Positions 55,519 through 58,936 of a DNA stretch of 64,000 nucleotides are shown here, in pieces. The DNA lies in assembly GCF_900142725.1 (NCBI RefSeq), contig NZ_FRBW01000001.1, positions 620,001-684,000 on the forward strand. Direction: 5' to 3'. The position numbers and the translations under genes are program-made. The number at the start of each line of letters is the position of its first letter. Within the stretch, counting starts at the first letter, position 1. The notes beneath the pieces were generated by a model. The model saw only the letters and a list, made by a program, of their open reading frames with translations, was not told the DNA's origin and did no database searches. This DNA is from Roseibium suaedae. GTDB lineage: Bacteria; Pseudomonadota; Alphaproteobacteria; Rhizobiales; Stappiaceae.

Positions 55519-58500
55519 TTAGCCGGCGGCCGCCTTCTGCGGCAATGGTTCGCGGTAGACCACTTGCGGTGTGCCGATTGTGCCGAGGCTCAACAGAGCC
55601 TCATGCACAAGCGGCGGCAGGTTCCGCTGCAGGTTTGCCAGCGGCTTTGGGCGGCCGATCAGGAACCCCTGGATCTCGTCGCAACCGCTGTTGGCCAGGA
55701 ACAGAAGCTTGTCCATTTCTTCTACGCCCTCTGCCACAATGCTCATGTTGAGCGCCTTGCCGAGGCGGACCACCGTCTCCACGATGGCCTGGGCTGGGGC
55801 ATTGACGCCTGCTTCCTGAACAAAGGAACGGTCGATCTTGATCGTGTCGAAGGGGAAGCGGCTGAGATAGCCCAGTGAGGAATAGCCGACCCCGAAGTCA
55901 TCGAGCGCGATCTTGAAGCCCATATCCTTGAGGCTCTTCAGGATTGCGAGGGCACGTTCGTCGTCCTCGATCAGCAGGTTTTCTGTGATCTCGAACTCCA
56001 GACGGCTGGCGTCGATGCCGTGGTGGACAAGAGACTGGCGCACGTTCTCCAGGAAGTCGGCATCCCGGAACTGAACGGGGCTGACATTCACACTGATCCG
56101 GGCATCAAGGATGCTGGACTTTGCGGCAGAAAGCGCCGCGTCGATGACCCACTGGCCGATCGGAATGATCTGGCCGGAGTTCTCGGCAACCGGAATGAAA
56201 TCGGCCGGGCTTACCTGACCACGGGTCGGATGGTTCCAGCGGATGAGCGCTTCATAGGAGGCAATCTTCAGGGTCTTCAGGTCGAGTCTTGGCTGGTAAT
56301 GCAGCTCGAACTGGCCGGACTGGATGGCGTCGTGCAGATCCTCCTCCAGAAGCCGCCGTTCACGCATCTCGTCGCCCATGCCAGGCTGATAGATCTTGTA
56401 GGTGCGGCGGCCCAGATCCTTGGCATTGTAGAGGGCGATGTCGGCGTTCGAGATGGTCACCTCGGCGTTTTCCGTCTCCCGGTTGATCAGCGCGACGCCG
56501 ATGCTGGCGCTTGGGCGTAGAACCAGCCCGTTGCCGCAATCGATCGGCTCGGCGAGGAGATGCACCAGCCGGTGGGCAAGGTCAGCCGCTTGATTGGAAA
56601 ACTCGATCCCGCGCAGGATAACCGCGAACTCGTCGCCGCCAAGGCGGGCGATGGTGTCAGCAGGGCGGGTATGCTCGCGCAAGCGGTCGGCAGTGACCCG
56701 TATGACCTTGTCGCCGACCGGATGACCGTGAAGGTCGTTGATATCCTTGAACCGGTCCAGATCCAGCAACAGCAGGGCGGCGGAATTGCCTGTGGTCTTG
56801 CAGTAGCCGATGACGTGATTGATCTCGGAATTGAACACGGCCCGGTTTGGCAGGTCGGTCAGCGTGTCATGCTGGGCAAGATGCAGGATCTTTGCCTCTG
56901 CGGCCTTGCGCTGGCGAAGGTCAACCAGGGCGGAGACGCGGGTCGGAGTGCCCCGGTAGGCAATGACGCGTGTGCGGATTTCGACCGGGATCGGTTCCCC
57001 GCTGCGGTTGACCAGTTCCATTTCGCGTGGCTGCAGTTCGGCCTTGGCCAGATGGCTCTCCAGGGTGCCGGCCAGCTCGGACTGCACGAACTCATAGAGG
57101 CCACGCATCTTCAGTTCTTCGATCTTGTAGCCAAGCAGATCCTCAAGGGCGGCGTTGCCGTCCAGGATACGGCCGTCGACCGAGATCACGATGGCGTCGA
57201 AGGTTGCGTTGGCAAGAGCTGACATGCGCTCGCCTTCTTCCCGCGAACGCTTGGCATCCGCAGCCTTGCCCTGGGCCACTTCCACGTTCTGGATCGTGTC
57301 CATGAGGGCATTGAACATGCGCGTCAGGCGCTCTGAATCATCGCCGCGGGAGACCGCGAGGCGCATGTTCAAATCGGCCTTGCCGGCGATGACCTTTTCC
57401 AGCGCATCTTCCACATGGCCGATGCCGAGGCGGGTGCCATGTTCGCTTTCGTTCATGCCAATGTCTTCGGACGCGGCATCGATGCGCAGTGGCATCACCA
57501 GCGAAAGGGTGCGGAGGAAGACGTAGCCTGCGCCAAAACACCAGACGAAGTTGAGGGCGACACCTTCAAGCTGGATCAGGAACTGGGCGCCACGGTCGCC
57601 AAGGGGCAGGTGGCTTTCCGGTGCAAGCAGAGCCAGGCCGAGGGTGCCGACGACACCTGCGAACCCGTGAACGCCAATGGCCCCGACCGCATCGTCGACC
57701 TTCAGGTGGCGTTCGAGAAGGGTGGTTGAATAGACCGCAACGAGGCCTCCGACCGCACCAATGACAATGCTGCCCGCTGGCGTCAGGACATGACATCCGG
57801 CGGTGATTGCGACGAGACCGCCCAGAAGGCCGGACAGGGACTTTTCAGGCAGGATGACCCGGTCCTGCGACCAGCCAAGGAAATAGCCCGCAGCGGCGCC
57901 CATGGCCGCGGCCAGAACGGTGTTGACGATGATCGGCGCAACGTCGGCAGAGGCCTTGAGCGTCGATCCGCCGTTAAAGCCGATCCAGCCGACAAAAAGC
58001 AGCAGGGCGCCAGCCGTTGCCAGAACTGAACTGTGCCCCTGGATGCGCATGGGCAGGCCATTGTGATCGTAGCGGCCCTGCCGCGGGCCGATCAGAAGGC
58101 AGGCGGCGAGAGCAATCCAGCCGCCGGTGCCATGAACCACCGTAGAGCCGGCAAAATCGACGAAGCCATTTTGGGCAAGGAACGCGGTGGAGTTTTCGAC
58201 CAGGGCATTGCCCCAGGCCCAGTGGGTGAAGACAGGATAGATGATGGCGGCGGTGAACAGCGAGCACCAGACATAGGCGGCGAGCTTCATCCGTTCGGCA
58301 ACAGCGCCGGAGATGATGGTGGCGGCCGTGCCGCAGAACATCACCTGGAAGGCAAAGAAGGCATAGCCCCAGGTGTCCAGATTGCCGAGGAGGAACAGGT
58401 TCTGGTCCAGCCCGACCCAGAAGCCGTTCGATGCACCAAAGGCGAACATGAAGCCGACACTGGCGAAGGCGATCACACTGAAAGCAAAGTCCAGAAGGTT

Positions 58501-58755
58501 CTTCTGGGCAACGTTGATCGAGTTCTTGGAGCGGACAAGTCCAGCTTCCAGCAGCATGAAGCCGACCTGCATCATCAGCACAAGGGCAGCGGCAACCATC
58601 ACCCAGATGAGGTCGAGGCTCTGGCGCAAGCTTTCATGGGCTTGCTGCAGCACAACACCATTATCTGTGGCCCAAGCCGTGTTTGCCATGAGCAGCAAGA
58701 CAGCCGAGCACGCCGCATTCCCCAAGCCCCAGCGGACCAGCAACTTCTTCGCCAT
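55519..58755 (-). CDS. Ammonium transporter-PAS-GGDEF-EAL fusion
   Basis: A 1078-residue membrane enzyme. Residues 45-425: Amt/MEP channel with eleven helices and the twin His pair at 208 (VVHGTGGW) and 363 (GVHGFAGVVGT). Residues 440-500: HAMP-like helical linker. 512-620: PAS. 625-790: GGDEF (706-710) intact, with I-site RPAD (697-700) five residues upstream. 800-1050: EAL (835-837), EITEN, DDFG and KIDRSF intact. So ammonium binding is coupled to making and breaking c-di-GMP. Signal or first helix at 1-31; start 58755 (GTG at 58779 possible). Its stop is 5 bp from the MITE-like element. Confidence 0.93.
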   Translation of the reverse strand: MAKKLLVRWGLGNAACSAVLLLMANTAWATDNGVVLQQAHESLRQSLDLIWVMVAAALVLMMQVGFMLLEAGLVRSKNSINVAQKNLLDFAFSVIAFASVGFMFAFGASNGFWVGLDQNLFLLGNLDTWGYAFFAFQVMFCGTAATIISGAVAERMKLAAYVWCSLFTAAIIYPVFTHWAWGNALVENSTAFLAQNGFVDFAGSTVVHGTGGWIALAACLLIGPRQGRYDHNGLPMRIQGHSSVLATAGALLLFVGWIGFNGGSTLKASADVAPIIVNTVLAAAMGAAAGYFLGWSQDRVILPEKSLSGLLGGLVAITAGCHVLTPAGSIVIGAVGGLVAVYSTTLLERHLKVDDAVGAIGVHGFAGVVGTLGLALLAPESHLPLGDRGAQFLIQLEGVALNFVWCFGAGYVFLRTLSLVMPLRIDAASEDIGMNESEHGTRLGIGHVEDALEKVIAGKADLNMRLAVSRGDDSERLTRMFNALMDTIQNVEVAQGKAADAKRSREEGERMSALANATFDAIVISVDGRILDGNAALEDLLGYKIEELKMRGLYEFVQSELAGTLESHLAKAELQPREMELVNRSGEPIPVEIRTRVIAYRGTPTRVSALVDLRQRKAAEAKILHLAQHDTLTDLPNRAVFNSEINHVIGYCKTTGNSAALLLLDLDRFKDINDLHGHPVGDKVIRVTADRLREHTRPADTIARLGGDEFAVILRGIEFSNQAADLAHRLVHLLAEPIDCGNGLVLRPSASIGVALINRETENAEVTISNADIALYNAKDLGRRTYKIYQPGMGDEMRERRLLEEDLHDAIQSGQFELHYQPRLDLKTLKIASYEALIRWNHPTRGQVSPADFIPVAENSGQIIPIGQWVIDAALSAAKSSILDARISVNVSPVQFRDADFLENVRQSLVHHGIDASRLEFEITENLLIEDDERALAILKSLKDMGFKIALDDFGVGYSSLGYLSRFPFDTIKIDRSFVQEAGVNAPAQAIVETVVRLGKALNMSIVAEGVEEMDKLLFLANSGCDEIQGFLIGRPKPLANLQRNLPPLVHEALLSLGTIGTPQVVYREPLPQKAAAG

Positions 58756-58936
58756 CACAAGCCCCAAACCACTCAACACACTCGAGAATTTAGGGAAAGT
58801 ATTAAACAGAGGTTTTCATAAGCATAAAAAATGTGAAGGAAATCGGATCGGGATTATTTACAGGGTCGAAGAGTGGCCAAGCCACTGTTTCCGCTGCGGT
58901 ATATTTGTGCGGTGCGAAATGGCCGCCATCAAGATT

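Follow-up and report, generated by a model that had tools for sequence, protein, structure and literature searches.

There is still no agreement on how bacteria perceive ammonium outside the cell. Most Amt proteins are transporters, and Amts fused to signaling domains are the clearest candidates for receptors. To our knowledge, all known Amts are trimers. In Ks-Amt5 from Kuenenia stuttgartiensis (PDB 6eu6), a sensor Amt with a histidine kinase output, two ammonium ions are held inside the membrane by Q24, E31, N47, D50, T51, T109 and T112; the kinase is NH4+-dependent, and NH4+ is bound but not efficiently moved (PMC5764959). Sd-Amt1 from Shewanella denitrificans (PDB 8qj3, OFF; 8qj4, ON; 8qpf) carries a GGDEF domain after the Amt; its receptor ON and OFF states are known here from the PDB entry titles. 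AmtE from Azoarcus olearius, an Amt with GGDEF/EAL, was described as a likely "transceptor", and its mRNA is 36-fold up in nitrogen fixation (PMC8467165).

Here we analyze a protein of this kind, encoded in a 64,000-nucleotide stretch of the Roseibium suaedae genome (the window). Members of the marine genus Roseibium are often associated with algae and corals. The fused protein would give the genus a direct route from ammonium to c-di-GMP, the messenger governing biofilm and motility.

Gene structure and genomic context

The gene occupies window positions 55519-58755 on the minus strand, as do all of its parts described below. It reads as 1078 stop-free codons plus a stop and, from translation, Pfam and homologues, has the architecture Amt-HAMP-PAS-GGDEF-EAL; the plus strand across the same interval is interrupted by stops. 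Translation begins at an ATG at 58755, with an alternative in-frame GTG at 58779. The preliminary description had proposed a single 1078-residue protein and left its strand unstated; the single protein is confirmed. The AlphaFold2 model, calculated as a monomer with 29 aligned proteins as input, has a mean pLDDT of 84. Residues 1-40 (58636-58755) form an N-terminal extension, delimited by sequence and by low model confidence, which by comparison with other Gram-negative Amt proteins is probably a cleaved signal peptide.

An undetected frame break between Amt and PAS, raised earlier as a possible flaw, is excluded by 28 homologues (36-90% identity) that read through the junction with no stop, and by the codon changes relative to the R. 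litorale copy. These are mostly synonymous in each domain (synonymous/nonsynonymous: HAMP 26/1, PAS 39/1, GGDEF 70/9, EAL 83/25, Amt 164/35). That separate genes were joined by a sequencing or assembly error is thus vanishingly improbable: dozens of genomes carry the same fusion, codon-level purifying selection extends across the junction, and the homologues refute such a join.

Upstream on the same strand lies a gene that we take from its translation to be tadA-like, and a presumably mutL-like gene, likewise named from its translation, is convergent with the fused gene. No nitrogen gene was found among the immediate neighbours. The sole sigma-54-type promoter candidate near the start (58739-58754, two mismatches) falls inside the coding start and was rejected, and such sites are not more frequent across the window than expected by chance. 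Elsewhere in the genome, on another contig, two unfused Amts stand in tandem directly downstream of a PII gene. The genome contains 29 GGDEF stretches.

The Amt domain and its predicted receptor site

The Amt domain spans residues 51-441 (57433-58605; Pfam Ammonium_transp, E = 1e-103) and scores 347.5 bits against the PF00909 profile (cut-off 23.2) and 361.8 bits against TIGR00836 (cut-off 343.3). Both twin histidines noted in the preliminary description were recovered as H208 and H363, together with the Phe gate F140/F260, the recruitment residues W181/S264, and D200. We further characterized the relatedness of this domain by scores, structural superimposition and phylogeny. It scores 311 bits with Ks-Amt5 and 298 with Sd-Amt1, compared to 151 with E. 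coli AmtB. The best structure matches of the model are 6eu6, entitled "Sensor Amt Protein" (1.5 Å, Z 64.5), and 8qj4/8qj3, "Receptor Sd-Amt1" ON/OFF (Z 63), compared to a best Z of 58.8 for AmtB structures. In a phylogenetic tree, a single clade (SH-aLRT 93) gathers the fused Amts across DGC-PDE, MCP, HK and DGC outputs and leaves out only the degenerate L038. The alphaproteobacterial Amt-PAS-GGDEF-EAL proteins make up a branch of their own inside this clade, next to the Amt-MCP proteins; the tree comes from a quick search and has long branches (L038, L193, L192, L188), and we do not rely on the exact order within the clade. Across the order, Amt matches above 270 bits fall exclusively in long (fused) frames, apart from one contig-cut copy, and those below 206 bits almost always in short frames. 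On these sequence comparisons, the Amt part sorts with the receptor Amts and apart from assimilatory channels.

Alignment to Ks-Amt5 places a predicted NH4+ site in two parts, Q63 and E70 in helix 1 with N86 and D89 in helix 2 (58489-58569), and T146 and S149 in helix 4 (58309-58320). The equivalents of the seven Ks-Amt5 ligands are Q63, E70, N86, D89, F90, T146 and S149. The change of T112 to S149 is conservative, and the T51 position, F90 here, is F in Sd-Amt1 as well. These site residues and the channel residues of the Amt part are invariant across the 29 aligned proteins. Among the Amt sequences collected, a sample drawn mostly from Pseudomonadota with near relatives included, 67 of 70 fused Amts (counting one contig-truncated copy, L129, as fused) carry the five-residue set QENDT, vs 3 of the 79 that are unfused. 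Other sets occur in the unfused proteins, mainly of the A-E-N-L-S, H-E-I-D-A or T-Y types; since these sets can hold E or D, E or D alone is no mark of a receptor.

It is an even call whether the signal-fused Amts are one old, non-assimilatory clade of ammonium receptors that shares the Ks-Amt5 site QENDT and has exchanged its output several times: a kinase, a chemoreceptor, a cyclase or a cyclase-hydrolase, or a separate partner of about 215 residues where the Amt is unfused. As the signature follows one clade, it may mark descent and not function. If the receptor interpretation is true, the fused protein acts as a dedicated receptor, and QENDT offers a test of receptor or transporter applicable to any Amt sequence.

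Three unfused QENDT Amts each lie directly 5' of a gene of about 215 codons (L189:5468-6121, plus; L191:5411-6052, plus; L190:2418-3032, minus). The three products belong to one uncharacterised family (29-31% identity), a Pfam scan of two of them gave no match, and the predicted structure is all-helical (pLDDT 78.5). This protein is a candidate for a separate partner of an ammonium receptor. One fused Amt, L192:249-2432 (minus), has a changed receptor site (RESDI) and pore (LWDHCAH), and its C-terminal part gave no Pfam match and is kinase-like by eye. L038 and L039 belong to the same family as the R. suaedae protein and have lost the receptor site, with damaged twin histidines and PAS-GGDEF-EAL kept; the L039 Amt is no longer detected by Pfam.

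Does the Amt domain transport ammonium? The preliminary description had held that a closed pseudochannel would overturn its interpretation. The Ks-Amt5 plug F27/Y30/F34 corresponds to F66/L69/L73, so that one of three plug residues is kept and a full plug is missing, and the channel residues are intact. A closed pore, if present, would indicate a receptor instead of refuting a signaling role. The plug positions of Sd-Amt1 (F/F/N) are incomplete as well, implying that the plug belongs to Ks-Amt5 and not to the clade. With F90 for T51, S149 for T112 and most of the plug absent, transport could persist. A true transceptor, in which flux through a working transporter and not binding drives the c-di-GMP enzymes, would fit the retention of all conserved channel residues and the absence of two plug residues; the clade and the site nevertheless resemble those of Ks-Amt5, not an efficient NH4+ translocator, and the genome has unfused Amts next to a PII gene at another locus. 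We regard this mechanism as rather unlikely. Given those two unfused Amts, transport by the fused protein is possible but probably not its main role. The link from ammonium to c-di-GMP proposed in the preliminary description stands as the most likely role, but its wording as an ammonium channel acting by flux is not supported by the scores, the tree and the kept Ks-Amt5 site.

A HAMP-like linker between Amt and PAS

The AlphaFold2 model contains two helices between Amt and PAS, residues 446-456 (AS1) and 475-507 (AS2), within a HAMP-like transducer at residues 446-507 (57235-57420). The preliminary list of Amt, PAS, GGDEF and EAL was correct but missed this coupling element. The fused protein itself has no match to HAMP (PF00672) at E<=10, and 11 of the 29 aligned homologues have HAMP matches of some kind (best 2.6e-4). 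In the Amt-MCP relative L034, the aligned linker exceeds the Pfam HAMP cut-off (31.4 vs 25 bits). N482 of the linker is invariant in the aligned family. Because the fused protein falls below the Pfam threshold, we term its linker HAMP-like only. Alignment to the Amt-MCP proteins extends to residue 491-502, such that about 60 residues past the Amt are common to both. Since the same Amt and linker are joined to MCP in these sister proteins, the linker is a reusable transducer.

Proteins with an Amt fused to methyl-accepting chemotaxis domains (L034-L037, L044, L069, L186) were found in Hyphomicrobiales and, outside the class, in a single genome. They are candidate ammonium chemoreceptors, and we found no paper on Amt-MCP fusions. 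A Roseibium protein with Amt-HAMP-MCP-PilZ architecture (L066:1390-4059) would let a single chain sense ammonium, bind c-di-GMP and serve chemotaxis.

The Amt could also be a scaffold or an evolutionary leftover, with PAS as the real input and c-di-GMP output untied from ammonium. The strongest constraint relative to the R. litorale copy indeed lies in HAMP (1 amino-acid change in 27 changed codons) and PAS (1 in 40), and the sister proteins L038 and L039 keep PAS-GGDEF-EAL with a degenerate Amt. However, the invariance of site and channel residues across 29 proteins is unexpected for a leftover, and the same Amt recurs with a range of outputs, which makes this a distinctly improbable alternative to an ammonium receptor.

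PAS, GGDEF and EAL domains

The PAS domain covers residues 510-612 (56920-57228) in the model, with a Pfam PAS_9 match at 520-612 (E = 8e-08). It is followed by a GGDEF domain at residues 627-784 (56404-56877; Pfam E = 3e-42) with the motif G706-F710 and the metal-binding Asp D665 of PF00990. The I-site R697xxD700, reported earlier as RxxD, and the GGDEF motif 706-710 lie at 56626-56667. The EAL domain spans residues 805-1036 (55648-56343; Pfam E = 3e-71) and has the complete PF00563 set of E835, N890, E922, D952, D953, K973, E1009 and Q1029, invariant in 29 of 29 proteins. Pfam and residue alignment thus bear out the earlier statement that all three domains are present with intact catalytic motifs, and across the aligned proteins one F710Y is the only departure from the catalytic residues of GGDEF and EAL. 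Only 15 of the 29 retain a complete I-site (R and D), and product inhibition is therefore not general to the family.

PAS-GGDEF-EAL relatives are often mainly phosphodiesterases, and this is how the nearest tandem proteins (PA0861/RbdA-like, DibA) are chiefly known, but the GGDEF domain here has a complete active site. Net enzyme activity is not readable from sequence; either enzyme may dominate, and the response may run in either direction.

Taken together, the domain composition and conserved residues make it likely that the fused protein is a membrane ammonium receptor controlling c-di-GMP turnover through HAMP and PAS. NH4+ would enter the Amt module, presumably a trimer, via the S264/W181 recruitment site and the Phe gate, and would bind at the intramembrane acidic site formed by Q63, E70, N86, D89, T146 and S149, homologous to that of Ks-Amt5. 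Binding would shift the last, C-terminal Amt helix, and this shift would pass through the HAMP-like linker to PAS, a putative second input, and on to GGDEF and EAL. Each of these two has an intact active site, and the balance of c-di-GMP synthesis and hydrolysis would be altered. This would have a trimeric Amt driving a GGDEF dimer. Feeding a dimeric cyclase from a trimeric receptor is an unsolved problem common to all fusions of this type, one to which the Sd-Amt1 structures are relevant.

Distribution of the fusion

A contig scan found copies in three Roseibium relatives, R. litorale (90% identity), R. polysiphoniae (74%) and R. aggregatum (72%), and one weak GGDEF match. Of 397 genomes sampled from the order, 36, in ten families, carry the full architecture, defined by at least 50% identity over about 1000 residues; the full-length queries scored two candidates per genome, and these counts are therefore lower bounds. 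An eleventh family has one contig-cut copy, and three further copies in the order have a degenerate Amt. 10 of the 13 sampled members of Roseibium carry the fusion, one of them twice. In one Roseibium genome (G1096, contig C2), two Amt-fusion copies lie about 7 kb apart, at 4429007 and 4436394. Outside the order, we found one copy (L050) in 385 genomes of the class and, at 37-39% identity, five versions in 398 genomes of the phylum; these counts too are lower bounds. Gammaproteobacterial-type genomes carry similar proteins, and longer forms have several PAS domains (L179-L181). The architecture had been called less common, which does not agree with these counts, with the gammaproteobacterial-type versions or with the published Azoarcus AmtE (PMC8467165). 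NCBIfam has no family dedicated to the fusion among the best 25 matches, the main text of an alphaproteobacterial c-di-GMP survey makes no mention of Amt, and among the papers searched we found none on ammonium and c-di-GMP in Roseibium.

Comparison with known systems

Ks-Amt5 and Sd-Amt1, of the Amt-histidine kinase and Amt-GGDEF kinds cited earlier for comparison, fall in the same clade as the R. suaedae protein. Ks-Amt5 resembles it as a sensor Amt with an intramembrane NH4+ site (42% identity, 1.5 Å to the model), but has a histidine kinase output, the bulky plug and no HAMP (PMC5764959); the coupling in the fused protein thus probably differs in detail. Sd-Amt1 shares the receptor-type Amt, the QENDT site and the GGDEF domain that follows (41% identity over the Amt), but is only 644-661 residues long with GGDEF as its sole output, leaving PAS and EAL unmatched. 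AmtE likewise combines an N-terminal Amt with GGDEF/EAL, but comes from Azoarcus and not from Hyphomicrobiales, and its likeness is by published description. PA0861 (5xgb; 27% identity over about 550 columns) and DibA (NCBIfam NF045675; 400 bits over residues 495-1043 vs a family cut-off of 980) have the same cytoplasmic domain order, without an Amt input. Thus, the kind of protein is already known from AmtE, Sd-Amt1 and Ks-Amt5, to which the present analysis adds the HAMP-like transducer, a broad occurrence in Hyphomicrobiales and a residue signature held across different outputs.
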